A DNA stretch of 49,792 nucleotides from positions 1 through 49,792 of the IMG/VR virus record IMGVR_UViG_3300010391_000155; one strand, given 5' to 3'. Below the pieces are notes generated by a model. The model saw nothing but the letters and a program-made list of their open reading frames with translations. It was not told the DNA's origin and ran no database searches. Shown here piece after piece: positions 2,758 through 34,725 of this stretch; position 1 is the first letter of the stretch, and every line of letters begins with the position of its first letter. A program made the translations under genes and the position numbers. The stretch comes from a virus.

Positions 2758-3114
2758 TTATCCATCTTGGGTAAAAAGCCAACCGGCACCGACGCGAGAA
2801 AAGGCGCTTAGTGAAACTTCCAATTCGCGTAAATCATCGATAGCCTGCTCCGGCGTGAGCGCAATGATAAACGGCCCCGGCGCGACGTGGCAGAACCGGA
2901 TTTCGGCCTCGGTGAGTCGCTTGCGGAGAGTCTTGCACTCCACCCAGCAGCGGAAGCCGCGCTCCCCCGTGTAGCCGGGGGCCGGACGCCGCACCGCCAA
3001 ATCCCACACACCGCCGCCGACGTTGGAGTAATCTTCCACGTCATAGCCGGCGGCGCGCAGCGCGTCGCGGATGGCAGCGTGGGTGGTGTCGGTGCGGGCA
3101 CGGTAGCGCGTCAT
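2758..3114 (-). CDS. PD-(D/E)XK nuclease-like protein (VRR-NUC / resolvase type)
   Basis: A 118-residue protein starting MTRYRARTD. The layout is that of small PD-(D/E)XK nucleases of the VRR-NUC or Holliday-junction-resolvase-like type: an N-terminal helix (THAAIRDALRAAGYDV), then GGGVWDLAV carrying the metal-binding Asp, then WVECKTL with the E-x-K catalytic pair, then a helix (LTEAEIRFC). The usual Pro before the Asp is Trp here. The loop between the two catalytic strands contains a palindrome copy (2964-2981, read as APGYTGER), a tolerated in-frame insertion. It overlaps the upstream gene by ATGA-type coupling (3114-3111). Probable role in recombination or replication-intermediate processing. 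Confidence 0.75.
   Translation of the reverse strand: MTRYRARTDTTHAAIRDALRAAGYDVEDYSNVGGGVWDLAVRRPAPGYTGERGFRCWVECKTLRKRLTEAEIRFCHVAPGPFIIALTPEQAIDDLRELEVSLSAFSRVGAGWLFTQDG
2964..2981. repeat. dispersed palindrome, copy 4
   Basis: CCCCC GTGTAGCC GGGGG; the arms are imperfect in the centre. It lies inside the nuclease gene between its catalytic Asp and the E-x-K motif. Confidence 0.8.
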
Positions 3115-3674
3115 TTGTTCTCCAATATATCCAGCGCGGCGCGAGCCGCTTGTATCTTCGAGCGCGGCTGCCCCCGGGTACTCGGGGGTGAGTGCCGCAG
3201 GTAACTCGCCAGGTTGCGCAGGGCCGATTCATAAAATCTCTCTGGCGTCCCCTCTTGCTTACCTTCTCGGAGTTGCGCCTTCCAGACATCCGGCGGGGGG
3301 AGTCGCCCGCCAAACTCATCTGACTCTTTCAGCCGCCGTAGGATGACGGCCTGCACTTCGAGTGGGCTGCATCGTGAGCCTGTCGAACGACGCGCTTCGG
3401 AGAGCGCTAGCCGGAGATGCGAGAACCGCAGCACCTGAATTTCGTCCAGCAGTTCACCGTAGCGTGTCTCCAACTGATGATAGAGTCGCACGGTGGACAC
3501 GCCTAAATCAGTCGCGTGCGCCAACTGCTGATAGACCACCATCCGGGGCACGCCATTGCTACTCTGTAGCACGCCGATGGTGAGCCGGGCCCGCGCGCGC
3601 CAACCGGCCTCGCCGCTGTCGGCCAGGGCGCGGGCGGCGTCCAGCACATCCTCCGGCAGTTGGTAGGCGCTCAT
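3111..3674 (-). CDS. helical DNA-binding-like early protein
   Basis: A 187-residue, highly basic and helical protein starting MSAYQLPEDV. The segment VVYQQLAHATDLGVSTVRLYHQLETRYG looks like a helix-turn-helix, with LGVSTVRLY as the turn and recognition helix, so a DNA-binding role in replication or early regulation is plausible. A palindrome copy (3171-3188) encodes PPSTRGQPR near the C-terminus. The stop overlaps the start of the nuclease gene and the start overlaps the end of the 3886-3671 gene. No specific family recognised. Confidence 0.65.
   Translation of the reverse strand: MSAYQLPEDVLDAARALADSGEAGWRARARLTIGVLQSSNGVPRMVVYQQLAHATDLGVSTVRLYHQLETRYGELLDEIQVLRFSHLRLALSEARRSTGSRCSPLEVQAVILRRLKESDEFGGRLPPPDVWKAQLREGKQEGTPERFYESALRNLASYLRHSPPSTRGQPRSKIQAARAALDILENK
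3171..3188. repeat. dispersed palindrome, copy 5
   Basis: CCCCCGGGTACTCGGGGG; arms CCCCCG and CGGGGG with an imperfect centre. It lies in the 3' part of the 3674-3111 gene. Confidence 0.8.
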
Positions 3675-3886
3675 ACTTTTAGCGTGTTGCAGAGTATCTT
3701 CAGGTACATATCATAAACAAATGGCGGCCAATTTTCTAGCCTGAGCTTGACTTTATAGTGCTCATAAATTGTCCAACGGTCAAAGGGTATACGTTTCCAA
3801 GATTTTTCATCCACCAGACGATTAACTTCGGAAAACTCTTTTGCTTCTGCAACTGTCATAGACTCGTTCGCTCGAATATTGTTCAT
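3671..3886 (-). CDS. small early protein, unknown function
   Basis: A 71-residue protein. The start is ATG 3886-3884, part of an ATGA overlap with the end of the helicase gene (TGA 3885-3883), which is preferred over the longer frame. It begins MNNIRANESM and contains aromatic-rich segments (DRWTIYEHYKVKLRLENWPPF). It is lower in GC than its neighbours. Its tight coupling with dnaB suggests a role in replication, but no family is recognised. Confidence 0.6.
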   Translation of the reverse strand: MNNIRANESMTVAEAKEFSEVNRLVDEKSWKRIPFDRWTIYEHYKVKLRLENWPPFVYDMYLKILCNTLKV

Positions 3887-5175
3887 GACCAGCCCTCCCA
3901 TTCTGCAAAGCGGCGGTATGCCTTCACCCAGGCCATCTTAACCTTTCCGGTCGGCCCATCGTGATTTTTGCGAACCAGTATCCGGGCCTCCTGCGGCTTA
4001 TCGTCCGGCGGCGGGTTATCGGAATAATATCCGGGCGTATGAATAAACCAGACTTGCCGCGCGTCCTGCTCGATCTCTCCGCTATCGCGTAAGTCGGTAA
4101 GCTGTGGCTCTTGTCCGGTGTTCTCACGGTGCAATTGGCATAGCGCAATCACGGCGGCATTGGCGGATTTCGCAATGGCCGCCAGGCGCTTGGTCGTGAC
4201 GCCAATCAAATAGGGTAAGTTGCGAATGCGCGACTCGTCCCCGGATAGGTGGTCTATGTAACCCAAATGGTCAATCCATATCACATCCAGCTCACCCATG
4301 CGCCGCGCCGCTTGCTCGATTTGCGCTCGCGTTGAGAATCCCTTTTCGTAAAATTGAATGGGCAGGCTGTAGTAGTCGTTGGCCTGGTGGAGTATCCGGC
4401 TCAAGTCGTCCGGACCGGCCTTCGTCCGGTCAATCCCAAGTTCAGCTAGCGCGGCCGCCCCGACCCACGACTCTTTACTCTCCTCCAGAGTGAACACACC
4501 TACCTTCAGGCCGGCCCGTGCTTGCCGGATGGAAGACTGCGCCGCGAGTGATGTTTTTCCCATGCTGGGCCGGCCGGCAAGAATGGACAACTCCTTTCGT
4601 TTAAGGCCCAGGGTTTTCGAGTCTAAGACTTTGTATCCAGTGGTCACGCCCGGGATATGTCCGCTTGAGATGCTTCCCCCAACCTGCTCGTACCAACTCG
4701 ATACCGCCTGCGCCATCGGGACGATTTCGCCCACGCCATGATAGCGTTCAGCCACTGCCGAAAGTGTCGCTTGAGCGTCATTTACCAATTCCCCAACAGG
4801 CCGGCCCTCATCCATCGCCAACTTTGCTACCGCGCCGGCCGCCTCCATAAGGCGGCGGCGCGTCGCCGAGGCCTGAACGATGCGTGCATAGCTCTCTGCA
4901 TTCTGAGACGTTGGGACTACGTTAATTAGACGCGCCAGGTATGCTACCCCACCCACCTCGGCCAGTTGCCCGGCTCGGTCGAGCGCGGCCGTCACAGTCA
5001 TAGTATCAATGGCCTGACCTGCTCGCGCTAGTTCTAGAAACGAGTCCCAAATCCAACGGTGCTTATGAAAATAAAAATCTTCCGCGCTGAGCGCGTCCGA
5101 AATGTCCGGGTAGGTCGCCGGGTCAATCAGGACTGCACCTAGAACGGCTTCTTCGGCATACGAGTCTGGGGTCAT
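3883..5175 (-). CDS. dnaB: DnaB-type replicative helicase
   Basis: A 430-residue product, close to the usual 430-470 for phage DnaB. The start is ATG 5175-5173 in an ATGA overlap with the initiator gene. The N-terminal DnaB domain (residues about 5-110) has EEAVLGAVLIDP. The RecA-like domain has Walker A GRPSMGKT (201-208), a Walker B-like VIWIDHLG and the DSGEIEQDA motif followed by a hydrophobic strand typical of DnaB motif 4. It unwinds DNA at the phage fork as a hexamer. Its neighbour upstream is the putative initiator that would load it. The assignment is firm. Confidence 0.95.
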   Translation of the reverse strand: MTPDSYAEEAVLGAVLIDPATYPDISDALSAEDFYFHKHRWIWDSFLELARAGQAIDTMTVTAALDRAGQLAEVGGVAYLARLINVVPTSQNAESYARIVQASATRRRLMEAAGAVAKLAMDEGRPVGELVNDAQATLSAVAERYHGVGEIVPMAQAVSSWYEQVGGSISSGHIPGVTTGYKVLDSKTLGLKRKELSILAGRPSMGKTSLAAQSSIRQARAGLKVGVFTLEESKESWVGAAALAELGIDRTKAGPDDLSRILHQANDYYSLPIQFYEKGFSTRAQIEQAARRMGELDVIWIDHLGYIDHLSGDESRIRNLPYLIGVTTKRLAAIAKSANAAVIALCQLHRENTGQEPQLTDLRDSGEIEQDARQVWFIHTPGYYSDNPPPDDKPQEARILVRKNHDGPTGKVKMAWVKAYRRFAEWEGWS

Positions 5176-5882
5176 AGCTCGCGGGTTTCCTTGAGTGGCG
5201 CCTTCTTCCGAACCGCGCCTATTTGTTCCTTGAGTTGCCAGACGGTCGGCGGCGTCGTGCGCCAGACCTGCGTCCGCCCCCACGTCCTAATCTCATCGGG
5301 AGTATACGGCGGTTTGGCCCGGAGTAGGTCAGCCTTGACTTTCCCGATTTTCGCGCCATTGCCGTTTACAGAAGAGTCGATCCCGCAAACCTCGCAGATA
5401 GAGTCGAAGAGCAGGTCGGGTGTTCTGGGAGTGGGCGAGTCAGCGCCAGAGTCTCTTTCTTTCTTTCTTAATTGTCTCTTCAACTGACTCTCTGCAACAC
5501 GGGTGTTGCGCTGTGCAACAGTGATGTTGCTCTCTGCAACACGGGTCTCTTCGGTGTTGCGCTGTGCAACACTGGATATTTTCAAGACAATGCCTGCTTT
5601 TCCGGTATCGGCATAGGTGTGAGGCCGGTTTCGCCGTTGGGGAGTTAGGTCATTTAGATAACCTGCGGTAACAAGGGTCTGGGCATGGCGCATAACAGTA
5701 GCTCTATCCAAACCTAAATCATCTGCAATACGCTGGAGAGAGGCGGTGCAGACTCCATCTGCCATGCCGCAAAATCTCCAGATGCGCCCGAATACTGCCG
5801 AGGTCACTAGCCCATGTTCTTTGGAGAGAGAGTCGATCAGGACAGTCCAACCTTCTACTTGAGCAAGTATTGTCTTGCTCAT
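5172..5882 (-). CDS. replication initiator-like protein with HTH (lambda O-like role)
   Basis: Start ATG 5882-5880 in an ATGA overlap with the HNH gene; product 236 residues. The N-terminal part has a winged-helix/HTH pattern (SLQRIADDLGLDRATVMRHAQTL), as in phage replication initiators. The middle (VAQRN...VAES repeated) is encoded by the iteron-like DNA repeats at 5490-5575. The C-terminal part (KADLLRAKPPYTPDEIRTWG) resembles the helicase-interaction region of such proteins. The layout of DNA-binding N-domain, iterons inside the gene and dnaB next door parallels lambda O. Assigned by motif and context; no exact family named. Confidence 0.8.
   Translation of the reverse strand: MSKTILAQVEGWTVLIDSLSKEHGLVTSAVFGRIWRFCGMADGVCTASLQRIADDLGLDRATVMRHAQTLVTAGYLNDLTPQRRNRPHTYADTGKAGIVLKISSVAQRNTEETRVAESNITVAQRNTRVAESQLKRQLRKKERDSGADSPTPRTPDLLFDSICEVCGIDSSVNGNGAKIGKVKADLLRAKPPYTPDEIRTWGRTQVWRTTPPTVWQLKEQIGAVRKKAPLKETREL
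5453..5575. other. putative replication origin: iterons plus AT/pyrimidine-rich tract inside the initiator gene
   Basis: GCAACA boxes at 5494, 5515, 5536 and 5566, and inverted TGTTGC boxes at 5504, 5525 and 5555, give units of 21, 21 and 30 bp (consensus CTSTGCAACANNGNTGTTGC). Directly to the left is a T/C-rich tract (5453-5485, with TTTCTTTCTTTCTTAATT). Iterons inside the initiator gene with an easily melted flank are the arrangement of the lambda origin. Predicted by layout only. Confidence 0.65.
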
Positions 5883-6277
5883 GGCAACAACCTCATACCG
5901 GCTTGTTCGGGAGTGCGCCCATTCTTTCGACTGTTGCATGAGCGACAGGCCATTACCATGTTCTCTAGTTTTTCCTTTCCTCCCTGTATCTTAGGGATTA
6001 TATGATCTATAGTTTCGTCGCCCTGGAAATCCTGACCACAATAGCGGCAATTTGAACCATCGCGTTGATATACTTCTTGGCGTATGCCCGTCCACTTTTG
6101 GGGGTTGATACTCAGGGGTGGGGGAACTGGATTTTTTAGGCTGCGGTGGGTTTCGTCTAGTTCTGATTTGAACTGGCTCAGGTAATCCAATTGATCTTGC
6201 TCACTCAAATTCCAGAACTCTGATTCGGGGGAGATAACCAGTTCTGGATAACCCCCATAGATTCCTATGCCATTCAT
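5879..6277 (-). CDS. HNH endonuclease
   Basis: Start taken at ATG 6277-6275 (MNGIGIYGGY); an earlier in-frame ATG at 6361 has no binding site and would cross the leader structure. The product is 132 residues. HNH signature: RDGSNCRYCGQDF, then ETIDHIIPKIQGG (His pair), then NMVMACRSCNSRKNGRTP, with two CxxC zinc pairs. It is a metal-dependent nuclease of McrA/HNH type. It sits first in the replication operon under the 6439-6466 promoter and overlaps the initiator gene by ATGA. It could be a homing endonuclease or a replication/packaging nuclease. Confidence 0.85.
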   Translation of the reverse strand: MNGIGIYGGYPELVISPESEFWNLSEQDQLDYLSQFKSELDETHRSLKNPVPPPLSINPQKWTGIRQEVYQRDGSNCRYCGQDFQGDETIDHIIPKIQGGKEKLENMVMACRSCNSRKNGRTPEQAGMRLLP

Positions 6278-6300
6278 AACAAAAACGCCTTTCACCTGGA

Positions 6301-6390
6301 GCTGGTTGCTGGCTATTCGACACGAAGACTTGGAGTCAGCGTGGAAAACAACCAGCGCCATGTGAAAAGCGTCTTGGTCGCTTCGTGTCG
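6301..6390 (-). promoter_or_regulatory. structured 5' leader with interleaved inverted repeats
   Basis: Stem A: 10 bp perfect, 6318-6327 with 6381-6390 (CGACACGAAG). Stem B: 8 bp perfect, 6301-6308 with 6349-6356 (GCTGGTTG). The pairs interleave, so they form either a pseudoknot or two mutually exclusive hairpins in the untranslated leader between the promoter (6439-6466) and the HNH start (6277). Confidence 0.55.
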
Positions 6391-16548: not shown

Positions 16549-16688
16549 TATCTTTCCTGGTTCTTCTTATCCGATATTTCTTGCTCGCGGGATTTTCACA
16601 AGGGCCTCGCTGGACCTGCTGCTATTGCGGACAGATGTTTGGGACATTCGCACAAGCGGCAGCGCACACGCATAGCGGTAACTCATGA
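16545..16688 (+). CDS. 47-residue C2H2 zinc-finger membrane peptide
   Basis: ATG 16545 overlaps the portal stop (ATGA), and the stop 16686-16688 overlaps the next start (ATGA). An N-terminal hydrophobic helix ([15 protein letters not shown]) is followed by [19 protein letters not shown], a C-x2-C...H-x-H zinc finger. The double overlap makes a real gene likely. Function unknown. Confidence 0.6.
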
Positions 16689-19087
16689 GCGCTGCACAAG
16701 CTATTTATTCTGAGACCATTGCGGATATTACAGCTACCGGCACGGGCACGTGGGTAGACTGCGCCATCATCGCCGCCAGTTCGTTTACGGCCAACAAGAA
16801 ATACTTGATCATTGCTATCGCTGATTTATCGGGGTCGAGCGGCGCGGCGGAGCACTGGTGCCGTCTCGTGCATGGTACGACTCCAACATTATTCACAGAC
16901 GCTGATTACATCCTTGATCCCGGCTCTGGCGCAGACGGCGGGATGATCTGCTCGTGGATGTACATCTATACCCAGCCCGGCACAACCGAATTGGTCAAGT
17001 TGCAAATCCAGGGGGAGGGCGCGAGTGTTGCCACGTGCAAGTTCTCGCAGATTGTCGCAATCAATCTCGACGATGTGGGCACGGAGGGAACGCAATTTAT
17101 CTCCGGTGAGAGCCTGACCGATACGACTACCACTACGACTAAAACAGCCCACTCAAGCATCACCGTCACAGGCAATGGCGTCAAAGATTGGCTGGTCATC
17201 GGTCACGTCGTACAGGGACTTCCATCAACCACCGCGGACGGCACCGACTTCCTGGCCGATCTGTTCGAATCGGTGGGAGCAACTGCGGCGCCTTCGTTGG
17301 ATATAGAGGCCGAGGACCTCGATGTAGGCGATGAGCAGCGCAACTTTATCTTGGTGCGCTACTTCCCGGCTCTATCCAGCGGCAGTCATACATTCTCCGT
17401 TCGGATAGCCCACGCTGGCGCGTCGTTCACTGTCCTCAGTTCACGACTGATTGCGATTGATCTAAGCACGTTCTCACAACATGCCGGCGTGTATACGGAT
17501 GGCGCGATCTCGCCCGCTGCAACACCAACGTTTACGAATGTCGCTACCGTGAGCGTCACGCCATCCGTGACGGGCAATTGGTTCTACCTGGCGACGGCAA
17601 CCGGCGATATGGCGGTGTCATCTGCCGAACTCAACGAGCGGCTACAGGATGATGATGACGGCAGCATGGGGAGTGACCCGGCGTATGGAGACGATGCGCC
17701 AAATGCTCCGGCCTACGACGCGACCGACGACATCCCGCACGCCATAATGAAAATGAAGAGTCTGACTTCGGGGGCAAGTCGGACGATCAACTACGATTTC
17801 ACTCGGGCCGTCAGTACGCCGGATGTCAAGCATAGAAATTTAGTGGCGTTCTCGCTCGAGCTGGCGGCGGGCAGCCCCAGTGCTTCCATCAGTCCAAGCG
17901 CCTCTGTTTCTCCATCCGCCAGTGTCAGTCCATCGGCTTCCGTCAGTCCTTCGGCGTCCGTTTCCCCGAGTGCGTCGGTATCGCCTAGCGTTTCCCCAAG
18001 CGCAAGTGTTAGCCCATCCGTATCGCCGTCGGCCTCCGTTTCGCCAAGCGCTTCTGTATCTCCTTCGGCGTCACTCAGCCCATCGGCCTCGGTCTCTCCG
18101 AGCGCATCCGTCAGTCCGAGTGTAAGCCCATCCGTTTCACCGTCCGCATCTGTCTCACCATCAGCGTCACTGTCGCCCAGCGCATCAGTCTCTCCCAGCG
18201 CTTCTGTATCGCCTAGCGCAAGTGTTAGTCCGTCCGTCAGTCCAAGCGCCAGTGTTAGTCCTTCCGTTTCTCCATCTGCTTCGCTATCGCCGTCGGCTTC
18301 GGTATCCCCCAGCGCATCGGCATCTCCATCCGCATCGGTATCACCCAGCGTATCACCTAGCGCCAGCGTAAGTCCGAGCGCGAGTGTATCACCTAGCGTC
18401 AGCCCCTCCGCGTCTGTTTCTCCGAGCGCCAGTGTAAGTCCATCCGCTTCGGTTAGTCCATCTGTTTCCCCATCAGCGAGTGTCAGTCCAAGCGCATCGG
18501 TCAGCCCCAGTGTTAGCCCCTCGGCCTCTGTCTCTCCCAGCGCTTCCGTATCGCCGTCGGTAAGTCCGAGCGCGAGTCTCAGCCCCTCCGCCAGCGTTTC
18601 CCCAAGCGCAGGAGGTTCACCCTCGGCCTCACTCTCACCTAGTGCAAGTGTCAGCCCCTCAGCTTCAGTCTCACCCAGCGTCAGCCCATCGGCGAGTGTT
18701 TCCCCAAGCGTCAGTCCGTCGGCCAGCGTCAGCGCATCGGTCAGCCCCTCGGCCAGTGTCAGCATAAGTGTTAGCCCATCCGTCAGCCCGTCCGCTTCGG
18801 TGAGCGCGAGTGTATCGCCATCGGCGAGTGTGAGTCTGAGCCTCAGCCCGTCGGCCTCATTCTCTCCAAGCGCCAGCGCTTCCCCCTCGGCAGAAATTCC
18901 ATCTGACTTACACGGTCCGGCGCGCGATATATTCATTTCCAGGCCGCGCCAACCGATGACGCAGACACTCACGCAATCCGAGTGGTGGAAACTATTGGGC
19001 CGTGACTTGCCGAGAGAGTTTGAGCAACCACTCCTACGCGCGCGCGTGTACGACGAGGACGATCTGGAAGTGCTGATGCTACTATGA
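16685..19087 (+). CDS. virion-type protein with long Ser/Pro/Ala mucin-like repeat
   Basis: 800 residues. Residues 1-395 form a beta-rich part with strand repeats ([47 protein letters not shown]), likely jelly-roll or Ig-like. Residues about 397-738 are almost entirely SPSASVSPS-type repeats with about 40% Ser. The final about 60 residues are charged and end DDLEVLMLL. It sits between portal and capsid genes and overlaps a GalNAc-transferase-like gene by ATGA. It is likely a virion surface protein with an extended stalk that may be O-glycosylated; this is inference. The host-binding function is unknown. Confidence 0.7.
17873..18895 (+). repeat. coding tandem repeat: SPSASVSPS
   Basis: About 1 kb of direct 6-15 bp repeats encoding Ser-Pro and Ser-Ala-Ser units. 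Serine is written with all of AGC, AGT, TCC, TCG, TCA and TCT, so the peptide is conserved while the DNA is scrambled. This reduces slippage and recombination. Confidence 0.9.
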
Positions 19088-25795: not shown

Positions 25796-26486
25796 ATGCC
25801 ACCTAATGTAATGCCGAACGTCGACTACGAGAAACTTGCGATGGCCCTGCTGGCCGCGACCGGCGGAGTAGCGCAGAAGGCTGTCAGCAGCACACCGACT
25901 ACGACCTACGGGCACGGGTTGTCAAGTCAAATCCCTGGCGGAGCGGCAGGGCTGTTCTCGTTCCCTGGCATCGAGCCGGAGTTGATGAACGCGATGATCA
26001 TGCCGCGCCTGGGTCTACTTGACGCGCTCCCCAGCCGTACCAGCATCTATCAGGAGCCTCTGTACGGACTCATGACCGGCGTCACTGCAAGCACCGGATC
26101 GAATCCGACCGGAGTCTGTGATGATCCACCCACAGCAGGGTTGATGAAGCTCTGCGTTCACAAATTCGTGTATGGCCGCTTCTCCCGCATGACGCGCGTC
26201 TTTGATATTGACCGGGCAGGACTATTTATCAACCGCTCCGACTTCAACGACTTGACGCTGCTGGGCAATCCGCTTGCCAACGCCGGCAACTACTTTATGC
26301 CGCAGATTGCCGGAGGCGTGGGCGCGCAGGCGGTACGCAATGAACTTGCGAAGGCCCTGTTCGAGTTGGCGGTCTCGTGGGGCCGCGACTTTGCCGCTCA
26401 GACCTATACGGGTAGCCCGGCCAACAACACGTCCGGCGGCGGGTACAAAGAACCCTACGGCTTGGACATTCTGATCAACACCGGGT
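25796..26486 (+). CDS. major capsid protein, exon 1
   Basis: HK97-fold capsid gene, first 230 codons plus one base. It begins MPPNVMPNVDYEKL after GAAAGGAG. Head-protein traits: LMTGVTASTGSNPTGVCDDPPTAG, a conserved E-loop-like region, and FELAVSWGRDFAAQTYTG ending EPYGLDILINTG. The frame reads on eight codons into the intron to a TGA at 26510. Splicing to 26706 restores ...LINTG-YRDAETGVACPAADS, a continuous capsid sequence. The unspliced product would be a 238-residue truncated capsid protein. Confidence 0.9.
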
Positions 26487-26705
26487 CGATGGCCCCTTTC
26501 TCAAGCAATTGAGATTGAAACACTCCGTAAATTCAGTCAACGCTGAAACGCCAAGACTGAGCCAAGCCTGATAAAAATCAGGAAGGTGCAACGACTAGAA
26601 ACGGAGTACCCCGCATGGGGTAAAGGTATAGTCTGAACTGCAAGGAATAAAACTTGCAGAGTGGCGCAGAAATGCTCCACCCGCCGAGAGGCGAGTAACA
26701 AAGTG
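26487..26705 (+). ncRNA. group I self-splicing intron (219 nt, no ORF)
   Basis: All core helices can be drawn. P1: GGGU (26483-26486) with GCCC (26492-26495 region), U·G at the splice site. P2: 26500-26504/26509-26513. P3: ACTCCGT 26522-26528 with 26601-26607. TCAGTC/GACTGA (26533-26538/26555-26560), the P4/P5 region. P6: 26567-26572/26577-26582. P7: GACTA 26593-26597 with 26629-26633. P8: ACCCC/GGGGT (26608-26621). P9: 26638-26644/26653-26659. The conserved R-like GTGCAACGACTAGA and S-like AAGGTATAGTC are present. P10: CGAT (26487-26490) pairs ATCG (26706-26709). The intron ends in G26705. Its length is small for the class, and no homing endonuclease is inside. Confidence 0.93.
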
Positions 26706-27505
26706 ATCGTGATGCAGAGACCGGAGTGGCTTGTCCGGCCGCTGATAGCATCATCAACTCATTCGGCAACCTGGACGTGGGTACTAACGGAACAGCGCTG
26801 GTCAATCGTATCACGAACATCTATCGTAACTTGAAGTTCAACGCGAGCCGCATGGGGCTTGACCCGGCCAGTTGGGTACTGGTCATGCCGTGGAGTTTGT
26901 TTTACGAAGTTACCAAAGTCTGGCCATGCAGTTACCTGTCGTATCTCTGCCAGAACTTGCCGACCGGTACGACCAACTTCATTGACAGCGCGGAACAAAC
27001 CCGTATGCGCGACGACATGCGCGGCGACATCTTCTCGCAGACTGGTCAGTATCTTCTCATCGACGGCCAGAAGGTTCCTGTCCTGCTGGACGATGGCATT
27101 GCCGAAACGATTGTGGCGGGCGCAAGTTTCCGCGCCACAATTTATTTCGTTCCGTTGCGCGTCCTGGGCAATCGTCCGGCGACGTTCCTGGAATACGTCA
27201 ACTACGACGGTCCAGCGGGCGCCATGGAGATGGCGAATGCGGTCGCTCCCGCTGGTAGCTACTTCACCACCAACACCGGTCGCTACCTGTGGCACAAGAA
27301 ACCTCCCACCAACTTCTGCGTTCAGATGTTGGCGAAAACGGAGTGGCGTATCATCCTGGAGACGCCGCAGATCGCGGCGCGGCTCACGGGTGTGCAGTAC
27401 ACTCCGATCCTGAAGGAACGGGAGTTCAATCCGGCCGACACGTCGTACTTCGTGGACGGGGGAAGCACGAGCCGCTTCGGGCCTTCGTACTTTGCGCCCA
27501 ACTAG
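26706..27505 (+). CDS. major capsid protein, exon 2
   Basis: Last 266 codons plus two bases. Together with exon 1 it gives a 496-residue capsid protein. Contains ACPAADSIINSFGN, LVNRITNIYRNLKFNAS, ASWVLVMPWSLFYEVTK and VLDDGIAETIV, an HK97-type A-domain pattern, and ends SRFGPSYFAPN. An in-frame GTG at 26726 might be mistaken for a gene start, but no binding site precedes it, and the splice junction places the true sequence 20 bases upstream. Confidence 0.9.
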
Positions 27506-30249: not shown

Positions 30250-31041
30250 ATGCTAGTTATAAACACGGAAACCGATGAACTTCAACTCCGCTTTGAAAGT
30301 CTCCCGCCGCTGCCGGAGCTAGTGGAAGGTGAACCGCTCGACCACTGGACGGATAAACAGAGAAGCATACGCCAGCACATCGCGGAGCGCGGGATAGATG
30401 ACTTCCTGACCTGGCCTGAGATTGTCACGACGATGTTTGTCGGCGATGCGCCATACATACCGCTGGAGATGGCGACGCTACACGCCGATGGTTGGGGACG
30501 CTGGGGAAGTGCAATGGAGGAGGACGACTTGGGCGGGCCGCTATGCCTGCCCGATCACAATTGGACTTCTGGATCGATGGTGCACCAGGCCTACCATCTG
30601 CATCAGTGGGAGAAGGCCACCGGGATACGGGTAGACTCTCTCTCGACCATCGTGGAAATTGGTGGGGGTTATGGCGCGATGTGTAAGCTCATTCGGCGCT
30701 TAGGATTCACTGGACGCTACATCATTTACGATTTGCCGGAGTTGTCATTTATTCAGGAGTGGTATTTGGGAAAGTTGGGAGTTGACGTTGAACTATGTAG
30801 TGCGCCTTCGTTGGCGCCACTAGACTGTGATTTACTTATCGCGCTCTGGTCACTCTCCGAGATGACGGACGAGCAACAGATAAGCTATCTAGATAGTTTA
30901 TCTGCGAAGTATGTTTTGGTGGCCGCGCTGGATGCGCCCTGGCAGGGTCAAAATAACAACTACTATATTTATAATGTAAAGTCGAACTATGAAAAGAGAC
31001 CCATTCTGCACCTGCCTGGAAACTTCTACCTGCTAGGCTGA
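30250..31041 (+). CDS. putative sugar O-methyltransferase
   Basis: 263 residues. SAM motif TIVEIGGGYGAMCKLIRR, acidic YIIYDLPELSFIQEWYL, then LLIALWSLSEMTD. This is the layout of sugar O-methyltransferases of the putative_sugar_mtase type. It lies in the sugar island and is followed after one base by the original start of the three-domain glycosyltransferase. The binding site is not clear. Confidence 0.75.
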   Translation: MLVINTETDELQLRFESLPPLPELVEGEPLDHWTDKQRSIRQHIAERGIDDFLTWPEIVTTMFVGDAPYIPLEMATLHADGWGRWGSAMEEDDLGGPLCLPDHNWTSGSMVHQAYHLHQWEKATGIRVDSLSTIVEIGGGYGAMCKLIRRLGFTGRYIIYDLPELSFIQEWYLGKLGVDVELCSAPSLAPLDCDLLIALWSLSEMTDEQQISYLDSLSAKYVLVAALDAPWQGQNNNYYIYNVKSNYEKRPILHLPGNFYLLG

Positions 31042-31042
31042 T

Positions 31043-31120
31043 ATGACCAAAGTTCTCATCTGGCCCTTCCCCACGCAGCAGCCCGCCAATCACGGCATTG
31101 GTAGGATAGTTCACGCGCAG
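31043..31120 (+). pseudogene. orphaned first 26 codons of the glycosyltransferase gene
   Basis: ATG 31043 begins MTKVLIWPFPTQQPANHG and ends at ...HAQ (31118-31120), exactly abutting the stop codon of the leftward HNH gene. 25 of the 26 residues equal the start of the intact gene at 31867, while 18 of 26 codons differ. The frame continues open through the antisense of the HNH gene to a TGA at 31868-31870 that overlaps the intact start as ATGA. Confidence 0.85.
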
Positions 31121-31807
31121 TTATCGCGGGTAGAGTTTCAAGTGTTCTCGAAACTCTTCGTCGGTTTTATTATGCTTTCGAGAGTTGCAGCTAGGACAAG
31201 CAGGGACTATATTAGACACCGTATAACCACCACCGCGCGAGGCCGGTATCTTGTGCTCCCTATGAAACAACTTAATATCCGAGCGTCCACAATACGCGCA
31301 AGAATGATTATACTCATTCAAGATAGATTGCCACTGAGACTCGGTCAAGTCGGAAACAAGCCCGCGTTTTCTGTTGCGATAAATACGGCGGAGATTATTG
31401 ACTTTGCCTCGATTGGCCTTTCGATAGTCTTTCTGATAGCTCTTAATATTTTGGCTATTCTTGCTGTAATTCTTTCTGGTCGAGCGGAGAATAGAAGCTT
31501 TGCCATTCTCGGATTGATAATACTTCTTTCTATTCTCTTTAGATCTATTGTGGTTTTCCCAGTATCGAGCATTCATTTCAGTTCTGTGCTTTTCCCTGAA
31601 ATCATCCGTATTTCTTCTGAGATGGTCATAGCACTTTCGGCAAAGTCCATTAGCATAATGAACCTTGTACTGTTTACACTCTGTACAATTTATGTATGTC
31701 AGAGGAGTATACTTAACCTTTCGATAGCAGGATTGGCAATAGCCATATCCTTTATTTGGCTTTTGTTCTCTACATCTCTTGCAGGTTATTACTCTAGCTT
31801 TTCCCAT
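31121..31807 (-). CDS. HNH homing endonuclease (inserted)
   Basis: 228 residues, GC clearly lower than flanking genes. Two N-terminal zinc ribbons (CKRCREQK/CQSCYRK and CTECKQYK/CRKCYDH), a long basic Asn/Arg-rich linker, and a C-terminal HNH: HSCAYCGRSDI, HREHKIPASRGGGYTVSNIVPACPSCNSRK. It inserted immediately after codon 26 of the glycosyltransferase gene; a second, recoded copy of those codons follows it. It has its own promoter (31835-31863). It probably cuts the uninterrupted gene of related phages and spreads by repair. Confidence 0.9.
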   Translation of the reverse strand: MGKARVITCKRCREQKPNKGYGYCQSCYRKVKYTPLTYINCTECKQYKVHYANGLCRKCYDHLRRNTDDFREKHRTEMNARYWENHNRSKENRKKYYQSENGKASILRSTRKNYSKNSQNIKSYQKDYRKANRGKVNNLRRIYRNRKRGLVSDLTESQWQSILNEYNHSCAYCGRSDIKLFHREHKIPASRGGGYTVSNIVPACPSCNSRKHNKTDEEFREHLKLYPR

Positions 31808-31834
31808 CGGCGGTATTTCTGCGCGTGTACTACT

Positions 31835-31863
31835 ATTCTACTTCCTGGGGAGCATGGAGTCAA
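31835..31863 (-). promoter_or_regulatory. promoter of the HNH gene
   Basis: Minus strand: TTGACT (31863-31858), 17-bp spacer, TAGAAT (31840-31835). It overlaps the region upstream of the recoded glycosyltransferase start. Confidence 0.7.
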
Positions 31864-31866
31864 CCC

Positions 31867-34725
31867 ATGACTAAGGTTTTGATATGGCCGTTTCCAACGG
31901 AACAACCTGCTAATCATGGGATAGGTAGAATTGTTCATGCCCAGTACCGTTATTTATATGACTATGGCATAGAACTCACGCAAGACCCCACCCAGGCGGA
32001 TATTATTGCGTGTCATACGCAGCAGAAGGACTATCCACGAGTTGATTGTCTGCATACCCACGGGCTGTATTGGACGGGCGATGTAGGCAGCGGCGTATAT
32101 CACAAATGGCATGAGGACGCCAACGCAGGAATTATCAGCGCGGCCCGCCGGGCCAGGGCCATCACTGTACCGTCCGAGTGGATTGCAGAATGCTTCAAGC
32201 GTGACATGCGGGTCACGCCTACGATTATCGGGCACGGCATTGATGCAGTGGAGTGGACACCGGGAACCAATGGCAGTTACATTCTGTGGAACAAGAATAG
32301 ACCGGACGATGTGTGCAATCCGCGTTATGCTTATGATTTAGCAGTGCACGGGGATAAGGTCGTTTCCACCTTTGCGCCAGAGGGCGCATCGCTTCCCGGC
32401 AGCCTGACCGTCACGGGCAATTTGCCTCATGCCAAGATGAAGGAGCTCATTCGCAATGCGGACATATATCTCGCCACGACTAAGGAGACTTTCGGTATCG
32501 GCACGCTTGAAGCTCTTGCATGTGGTGTTCCCATCTTGGGTTTTAGACAGGGCGGAACAGCAGATATTGTCCGACATGAGCAGGATGGATATCTTGTTGA
32601 GCCGGGCGATATTGACGGTTTACTATTGGGTTTGGCGTTTATTAGGAAGCATAGACGGGGACTAAGCGCCAATGCCCGCGCCCGCGCAAAGGAATTTACT
32701 TGGTCGCGTGTGATGGAGCAATATGCACGACTCTATACTGAGCTGGCCAGTACGCCGGAGCCTACCGGGGTGAGTGTGATTGTCCCTTGCTACAACTATG
32801 GGCGCTACCTGGCAGCGTGTATCGAAAGCCTACTCAATCAATCCTATCGGCCTGAACAAATCATCGTTGTCGATGATGGGTCAACGGATGACAGCGCCAA
32901 CATAGCGGCGCGTTACAAGTTTCAAGGCGTCCAATACGTTCACCAGACTAATCAAGGTGTAGCTGCGGCGCGCAATCACGGGCTGTCGCTTGCCACCAAT
33001 CCATTTATCATTTGCCTAGATGCAGATGACCAGTTAGCGCCGCGCTACGTGGAAGTATGCCGAGCTGAGATGATGCGCGATAGAGCACTTGGCATCGTTT
33101 ATACCGGCCTGGAAGTCTTCACCGATATCGGCGTTCGCCAGCGCACTGGCTGGCCGCCAGATTTCAACTGGGAAGGCCAGACGACAGTTCATACGCCGCC
33201 TTCCAATTGTGTTCCATCAGCAGCCATGTTTAGGCGCAGCATGTGGGAGCGCGCTGGCGGCTACAAGCAGGAGTATGCGCCAGGCGAAGATACAGAGTTT
33301 TGGACGCGCGGGTTGAGTGTCGGCTTTACGGCAAAACGCGTCACTGATATGCCCTGGTTCTGGTACCGAAGCCATCCCGACAGCGCTGGCCGGACGCGCA
33401 AGTACAGGCCGATTGACGATTGGCTACCGTGGATGCGCGATAGAAATTATCCGATGGCCGCGCCCGCCAGTGTTACGCCAAAGGTACGCAGCTATAGTAC
33501 GCCTAAGGTTAGCGTGATTATTCCCGTTGGCCCAGGGCACGCGCAGTATTTACCGCAGGCGCTAGACTCTCTAATCGGCCAGACGATGCGGGAGTGGGAG
33601 TGTATTGTAGTAAACGATAACCAAGACCTAATAGAAGTGGTGGGTCCGTATCCTTTCATAAAACTTTTCCGTACCTCCAAGATGGGTCATATTCATGGGG
33701 CAGGATTTGCGCGCAATATTGGACTACGGGTAGCCACTGCTCCACTGGTTCTCTTCCTTGACGCTGACGATATGCTTGACCCGCAGGCATTAGCTAAGCT
33801 CTGCCGAAACTACTCGGCGCGCGAGGGACGTTACCTCTATGGCGATTGGGTGGAGATCACGCAGGGGAGAAGCACTCCACAGCGCAGCCCGGAGTACAAT
33901 CCTGACGCCTGGTTGAATTTTGGAGACATGAGCGGCAAGCATATCATCAGCGTGCTCATGGCGACCGAGGATGCGCGTAAGGTAGGTGGCTTCGACGAGA
34001 AACTACCGGCTTGGGAGGATTGGGACTTCTTCACCAAGTGCGCCATTGCCGGAATACATGGCGCACGTATCGCGGAGACAACGCTGATTGTGCGCCACGA
34101 TCTTGGAATACGTACCAAGCACGCATTCGCAAATCAGGATAAAATACTCTCAGAGTTAGCGGAGCGATACACGAAAGGGAAGTTGACTATGGCTCCTTGT
34201 TGTGGTGGAAATGGAGAAAGTTTATTGGCGGCGCGGTTGGCCTGGGAGGGTACGCCGCCGGATACTGGCGGCCTCACGCTAAATATCACGACCCGCAGCG
34301 GGAATGGAGGGTACAAAAACATGGCTTTGCAACAGGGCGCGCCGACCGATGGCGTACAACCGACGCGGATGGAGTTTATCGGAGAGCGGCAGGGCGGCGT
34401 GGACTACCGGGGCGTGGCCGATGACCGCCGGTACCATGCTGGAAATAATGCGCTGGAACGCTGGCACAACGTACACCCGCATGATGTGGATAAGTTGCTT
34501 TCGAGTGGCGACTTCCGAATTGTAGCAGTGGCTGTTGTGCAAAACTTCGAGCCACCCCCAAAAGCCATCGTCCCCGAAATCTCGCAAGCGGAGCGTTCTG
34601 AGGTGGAGGAAGAAGTCGAGGAGTTACCTGCCATCGAGACGGGTGCCGGCCGAGTGGCGCGTAAGCGGGTGAAGCGCAAGGAAACAGACAGCGTTCTCAG
34701 AGACTTGCCGCCGCTTGATAAGTAA
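31867..34725 (+). CDS. three-domain glycosyltransferase (GT4 + GT2 + GT2)
   Basis: 952 residues from ATG 31867; a longer upstream frame is not supported. Residues 1-310: GT-B fold, family-4 type (HTHGLYWTGD, VPSEWIAECF, TKETFGIGTLEALACGVPILGF, with the E-x7-E motif). 318-540: GT-A family 2 (VSVIVPCYNYGRYL, VVDDGSTDD, LDADDQL). About 565-780: second family 2 domain (VSVIIPVGPGHAQYL, FLDADDMLD, AWEDWDFF). About 800-952: Gly-rich then acidic/basic tail of unknown role (CCGGNGESLL, EEEVEELP). Likely assembles a glycan by sequential transfers. The first about 40 codons have lower GC and other codon choice than the rest, the recoded patch behind the HNH gene. Confidence 0.9.
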   Translation: MTKVLIWPFPTEQPANHGIGRIVHAQYRYLYDYGIELTQDPTQADIIACHTQQKDYPRVDCLHTHGLYWTGDVGSGVYHKWHEDANAGIISAARRARAITVPSEWIAECFKRDMRVTPTIIGHGIDAVEWTPGTNGSYILWNKNRPDDVCNPRYAYDLAVHGDKVVSTFAPEGASLPGSLTVTGNLPHAKMKELIRNADIYLATTKETFGIGTLEALACGVPILGFRQGGTADIVRHEQDGYLVEPGDIDGLLLGLAFIRKHRRGLSANARARAKEFTWSRVMEQYARLYTELASTPEPTGVSVIVPCYNYGRYLAACIESLLNQSYRPEQIIVVDDGSTDDSANIAARYKFQGVQYVHQTNQGVAAARNHGLSLATNPFIICLDADDQLAPRYVEVCRAEMMRDRALGIVYTGLEVFTDIGVRQRTGWPPDFNWEGQTTVHTPPSNCVPSAAMFRRSMWERAGGYKQEYAPGEDTEFWTRGLSVGFTAKRVTDMPWFWYRSHPDSAGRTRKYRPIDDWLPWMRDRNYPMAAPASVTPKVRSYSTPKVSVIIPVGPGHAQYLPQALDSLIGQTMREWECIVVNDNQDLIEVVGPYPFIKLFRTSKMGHIHGAGFARNIGLRVATAPLVLFLDADDMLDPQALAKLCRNYSAREGRYLYGDWVEITQGRSTPQRSPEYNPDAWLNFGDMSGKHIISVLMATEDARKVGGFDEKLPAWEDWDFFTKCAIAGIHGARIAETTLIVRHDLGIRTKHAFANQDKILSELAERYTKGKLTMAPCCGGNGESLLAARLAWEGTPPDTGGLTLNITTRSGNGGYKNMALQQGAPTDGVQPTRMEFIGERQGGVDYRGVADDRRYHAGNNALERWHNVHPHDVDKLLSSGDFRIVAVAVVQNFEPPPKAIVPEISQAERSEVEEEVEELPAIETGAGRVARKRVKRKETDSVLRDLPPLDK

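Follow-up and report, generated by a model that had tools for sequence, protein, structure and literature searches.

Likely replacement of the start of a phage glycosyltransferase gene by a block carrying an HNH homing endonuclease

The start of a glycosyltransferase (GT) gene in an uncultivated phage was likely replaced by a block that carries a homing-endonuclease gene of the HNH type. The sequence studied, which we call the window, is a 49,792-base IMG/VR virus record consisting of a single metagenomic contig. In this record, codons 1–26 of the resident GT gene are left as a stump (copy 1), an HNH gene on the opposite strand follows, and a full-length GT gene then begins with a second version of the same codons (copy 2; Table 1). 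The stop codon (TGA) of the upstream gene lies one base ahead of the copy-1 ATG. We consider it fairly probable that a block consisting of a leftward HNH gene and the 5' end of a rightward GT gene came from a divergent phage and homed into a GT gene broken near codon 26, thereby replacing its start.

Table 1. Features of the HNH–GT locus of the window
Feature	Position	Strand	Remarks
Upstream gene	30250–31041	+	SAM-methyltransferase-like, as suggested by an EIGGGYGA-type motif, without Pfam match; resident partner of GT
Copy 1 (stump)	31043–31120	+	resident GT codons 1–26; GC3 0.73; ends in ...CACGCGCAG
Stop-free frame, 275 aa	31043–31870	+	copy 1 plus HNH antisense, to the TGA within CCCATGA over the copy-2 start; possible translation bridge
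HNH endonuclease, 228 aa	31121–31807	-	two CxxC motifs of zinc-ribbon-like type in the N-terminal part; HNH domain at the C-terminus
Leader, 59 bases	31808–31866
Inverted GT-target-like sequence	31809–31833	-	GTAGTACACGCGCAG-AAATACCGCC; overlies the predicted start of HNH transcription; may be an operator or a third piece of GT
Sigma70-type promoter-like site for HNH	31835–31863	-	TTGACT-17-TAGAAT; 10/12 match
Shine-Dalgarno-like GGAG	31856–31859	+	7 nt ahead of the copy-2 ATG
Full-length GT (copy 2), 952 aa	31867–34725	+	GT4-like N-terminal part and two GT2-type domains
Putative foreign tract	31867–31974	+	copy 2 up to about codon 36; GC3 0.34 versus 0.59 past codon 26

Copy 1 (31043–31120) and the start of copy 2 (31867–31944) are identical in 25 of 26 residues, the lone change from copy 1 to copy 2 being Q12 to E12, while 18 of the 26 codons differ (20 nucleotides) and 8 are shared. 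The HNH stop codon (TTA on the plus strand, 31121–31123) directly abuts the last shared codon, CAG (31118–31120). This repeat had been claimed in an earlier, sequence-only reading of the window, and its coordinates, the 25 identical residues, the 18 changed codons and the HNH stop at the broken edge all proved exact. Because the 26-codon in-frame repeat was matched by tblastn with an E value of 1e-16 and these residues recur at that place in GT relatives, it is not a chance resemblance. The same reading held that copy 2 had been actively recoded. However, only 6 of the 23 degenerate codons for shared residues are the same in the two copies, where 8.4 are expected from window codon usage (P 0.20), and over the 78 nucleotides copies 1 and 2 are identical at 58 positions, copy 2 and its natural relative L003 at 59, and copy 1 and L003 at 64. 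The divergence thus lies at natural saturation and equals that from L003, and purposeful recoding of copy 2 was rejected. Long separate evolution of two lineages under purifying selection would suffice to account for the two copies. Co-conversion from a divergent relative, which had been named only as the alternative, becomes the better mechanism because the divergence between the copies equals both saturation and the divergence between copy 2 and L003.

Relatives of the locus were sought by means of the GT, a neighbouring DegT-like gene and a degenerate pattern for HGIGR[IV]VHAQ. Each of the seven relatives examined (L003, L008, L016, L009, L010, L011 and L014) carries a single, uninterrupted GT gene, in agreement with the earlier proposal, and none carries two full GT genes side by side, an arrangement that had been named beforehand as evidence against it. 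No HNH gene was found at the GT in these relatives (six records and that of L003 were searched), the lone match, in the record of L010, lying far from the GT. Since the relatives carry one uninterrupted GT gene and no HNH gene there, the interrupted state is derived and the GT gene was originally single. The uninterrupted order is seen in L008, in which the upstream gene is followed after a 4-nt gap by the intact GT gene, and it bears out the claim that the GT was broken after codon 26 of this ancestral order. Single-sequence searches of IMG/VR with the HNH protein and with the upstream gene gave no match, and searches of GTDB and of phage records gave distant matches only. In L003, the upstream gene and the GT are separated by a 65-aa ORF (4807–5001) of no recognised family, whose end overlaps the GT start; its place is that of the HNH gene in other phages and might be a hot spot of small insertions.

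The HNH protein matched the families PF14279 (E 4e-13) and PF01844 (E 1e-12), and its closest PDB chain was 4h9d, an HNH endonuclease (E 1e-7). It has two features of a free-standing homing endonuclease, namely a catalytic domain of the homing-endonuclease type and a gene of its own outside any intron or intein, which lies on the strand opposite to the GT here and likewise in L024. A profile search of IMG/VR yielded 80 HNH loci, among which the best relatives, L023 and L024 (39% identity over the full length, E 2e-44), come from two metagenomes and have an identical GT sequence. In both, the HNH gene stands head-to-head with and directly upstream of a GT homologue with 54% identity to the window GT, with 41 bases between the HNH start and the GT start, and the HNH gene ends a few bases past the point where an unrelated methyltransferase-like gene stops. 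No stump was found at this HNH–GT pair. The view of the HNH gene as a cassette inserted into the GT does not fit this free-standing position divergently upstream of the GT; the HNH gene and the replacement 5' end did probably arrive together, as the sequence-only reading had it. The divergent HNH–GT arrangement is a recurrent linked pair, shared with a distant phage, and would provide the natural donor layout for the window, in which the stump is present in addition. Among the other 78 loci, a GT-like match was present in L099 alone, and it was weak and of family 2. The C-termini of the HNH relatives vary widely. Truncation of the window HNH by the junction was mostly rejected as a candidate: the proteins of L018, L020 and L021 run 20–25 aa longer, but the closest, that of L024, extends only 3 aa further at its end. 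In L064, L067 and L068, an HNH gene lies between two diverged paralogues of one phage gene (39% aa identity over 104 residues), which is a different situation. A second, different HNH gene of the window (160 aa, 5879–6361, minus strand) is located amid replication-side genes.

When copy 1, copy 2 and L003 were compared, copy 2 was the odd one out (11 sites versus 6 and 5). The GC3 of its first 36 codons, which is below that of copy 1 and of the GT past codon 26 (Table 1), is the lowest among 23 gene starts and within the lowest 0.9% of windows. The best GC3 change point was codon 36 (permutation P 0.038), a weak signal, as AT-rich starts also occur ordinarily in genes. These observations are signs of co-conversion at the sequence level and lend modest support to a chimeric GT gene with a foreign start and a resident remainder. 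Over codons 27–60, and in that stretch only, L024 is closer to copy 2 than L003 is (0.62 versus 0.56). L024 itself was rejected as the donor, codons 1–26 of copy 2 being far nearer to L003 (0.96 versus 0.52).

The break is located at the most conserved codons of the GT, those encoding VHAQ. Alleles without a linked HNH gene (copy 1, L003, L008 and L016) read CACGCGCA(G/A) here, whereas the HNH-linked alleles read CATGCACAG (L024) and CATGCCCAG (copy 2), both containing CATGC(C/A)CA. The presumed site therefore differs exactly in the HNH-linked alleles, as had been anticipated, in a contrast of two alleles with four (Fisher P about 0.07), and the differences may protect copy 2 from cutting.

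In the homing mechanism that we favour, an HNH gene that is free-standing and divergently upstream of the GT in related phages would have moved in together with the 5' end of the donor's GT. The HNH enzyme, or another break, would have cut the resident GT just past the HAQ codons (codon 26), and repair would have copied the donor block, with the resident gene as the recipient. On the right side, recombination through GT homology at about codons 27–40 would have produced a functional chimera that begins with foreign codons, a step for which the support is modest. On the left side, the broken end (...CACGCGCAG) would have been joined to the 3' end of the HNH gene, leaving copy 1 as a stump, because the donor, whose upstream gene is not homologous, offered no homology there. 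As the foreign start has CATGCCCAG in place of CACGCGCAG at the site, it would possibly be resistant, in the way that targets are usually protected in intronless homing. The product would have the layout of a yeast WHO element in mirror image. It is established that free-standing phage endonucleases bring about co-conversion and marker exclusion (reviewed in PMC2988022), although these enzymes mostly cut far from their own genes and not at a gene edge (PMC2988022), which counts against homing here. An intron or intein was rejected: no Rfam match to a group I intron was found near 31121–31870 by a search that finds one in a capsid gene of the window, the two copies have overlapping sequence and occupy different frames, and the HNH gene is antisense.

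A related but unlikely possibility, which takes up the idea of the sequence-only reading, is that the stump (as a left homology arm), the HNH gene and a resistant GT 5' end are inherited together and move as a whole, each move swapping the 5' end of a GT gene. The topology mirrors that of the WHO elements found at the yeast FBA1 gene, which consist of a fragment of the recipient end, an endonuclease gene and a chimera with the donor end (Coughlan et al., 2020; PMC7282813). As in WHO elements, the endonuclease gene lies between a leftover end of the recipient gene, represented here by copy 1, and a full-length gene with a divergent end, which in the window is putatively chimeric, and splicing is not involved. 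The left junction falls exactly at the HNH stop with the stump intact, like a defined boundary, and the HNH gene and copy 2 have a promoter-like site and a GGAG of their own, respectively. On the other hand, the HNH–GT pair of L023 and L024 has no stump, and the window is a single instance, a scan of the 80 HNH loci having turned up no second gene end duplicated in this way. In WHO elements, the endonuclease can be in either orientation and the element-borne divergent end resists cutting, with cleavage shown, whereas the window offers base differences at the presumed site. WHO elements moreover concern the 3' end of a nuclear gene, encode LAGLIDADG/intein-type proteins with a zinc finger and occur in clusters, while the window presents a 5' end, an HNH enzyme and a single case in a phage; its HNH protein is not LAGLIDADG/intein-derived and does not belong to the WHO family.

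Comparable mobile ORFs (mORFs) bring a foreign C-terminus to atp6, cox2, atp9 and nad3 in fungal mitochondria of Allomyces and Glomus (PMC3630166). In these, a homing endonuclease ORF likewise brings a divergent, mostly synonymous gene end and the native end remains (atp6: 64% nt and 91% aa identity; PMC3630166), but the exchanged end is C-terminal, the enzymes are LAGLIDADG or GIY-YIG and the ORF is often in phase with the host gene, in contrast to the N-terminal end, the HNH enzyme and the opposite strand of the window. The architecture is therefore shared, at the 3' end, with WHO elements (PMC7282813) and mORFs (PMC3630166), and the assertion that the window is unlike known kinds of element does not hold. 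The T4 seg and mob genes also resemble it as intergenic endonuclease genes; their target is the neighbouring gene, divergence protects and flanks are co-converted (PMC2988022), as would be the case here. They differ in normally having no duplicated gene end and in cutting mostly far from the endonuclease gene. No phage case of this architecture was found in the literature searched, which is not proof of absence, and the present locus suggests that elements that cut a gene and replace its end exist in phages too. If the phage 5'-end case is true, gene-end replacement, here with another nuclease family, would be a convergent strategy and a natural counterpart of engineered home-and-rescue drives, and it would become apparent how gene ends are rewritten by free-standing endonucleases.

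Ordinary phage mosaicism, in which a divergent HNH–GT block was swapped by illegitimate and homologous recombination with the nuclease uninvolved and the stump as a scar, seems to us quite improbable. Mosaicism does mark phage genomes, whose exchange boundaries often carry nuclease genes (PMC10448857); yet the break hits the most conserved codons, just where HNH-linked and HNH-less alleles differ, and the adjoining nuclease gene is linked to this GT in another lineage too. It is very hard to uphold an origin from two tandem GT paralogues, the first of which was cut down to 26 codons by HNH insertion and deletion: a diverged repeat with a conserved protein sequence would also be expected, but none of the seven relatives has two GT copies and nothing further of a first copy turned up. 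An assembly chimera of two co-occurring phages is scarcely credible even for a single metagenomic contig and a stump seen once only, as a mis-join requires a shared k-mer, the only repeat across 31120/31121 is an inverted 14-mer, and the reading frame stays open over the join.

The plus-strand frame set by copy 1 is open through the entire HNH antisense to a TGA at 31868–31870 that overlaps the copy-2 ATG. TTA, CTA and TCA codons are absent from the HNH gene, where about 5.9 would be expected (P 0.001; P 0.015 by window codon usage), and such a stop-free antisense frame occurred neither in any of the 53 HNH homologues whose GC3 is under 0.5 nor in any of 849 equal windows taken from the genes of this phage. 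The HNH gene of L024 is likewise stop-free in that frame (2956–3699, minus strand; P 0.025), which there runs from an overlap with the stop of the upstream gene to a TGA over the GTG of the GT. These features, spotted post hoc, suggest that translation of the GT may be coupled to that of the sequence upstream, the open antisense frame being maintained as a bridge for which, in the window, copy 1 would give the start codon; copy 2 also has its own GGAG alongside this candidate bridge. If the bridge is true, it would illustrate how a selfish gene can be inserted in reverse orientation into an operon with translational coupling and yet leave the neighbouring gene expressed.

Promoter-like sites of the TTGACT-17-TAGAAT type are not above chance in the region (4 versus 2.6). 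The inverted sequence GTAGTACACGCGCAG-AAATACCGCC agrees with the GT targets of L016 and L003 except that three bases are absent right after CAG, and 1 in 3000 real background windows scores as high against L016. It could be an operator bound by HNH or a third GT fragment. I-TevI of T4 binds a homing-site-like operator and hardly cuts there, which results in autorepression (PMC2988022), and the window similarly has a homing-site-like sequence, altered near the presumed cut, at the endonuclease promoter. However, I-TevI is a GIY-YIG intron enzyme, and the window case is one of resemblance between sequences that is not seen in L024, upstream of whose HNH gene no such target-like sequence was found by eye. 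Participation of the inverted fragment in the left join (by inversion or fold-back synthesis) was rejected, since nothing beyond the repeat itself pointed to it and the operator reading is simpler. A broader conjecture, which we regard as doubtful and put forward only as speculation, is a self-rescuing homing element of phages, in which the HNH gene and a cleavage-resistant 5' end would be mobile together, the antisense strand would be kept stop-free to suit a place within an operon, so that ribosomes that enter at the stump traverse the HNH antisense and start anew at the overlapping beginning of the rescued gene, and HNH would limit itself at the target-like operator.

Two other regions of the window may be recorded. 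A group I intron (RF00028, E 3e-12, 26477–26659) without an ORF, at 26477–26735, splits a major-capsid-like gene (25796–27505), whose homologue in L003 is uninterrupted at the intron place. Positions 16685–19087 encode an 800-aa protein with a long low-complexity repeat, and several glycosyltransferase genes adjoin it.
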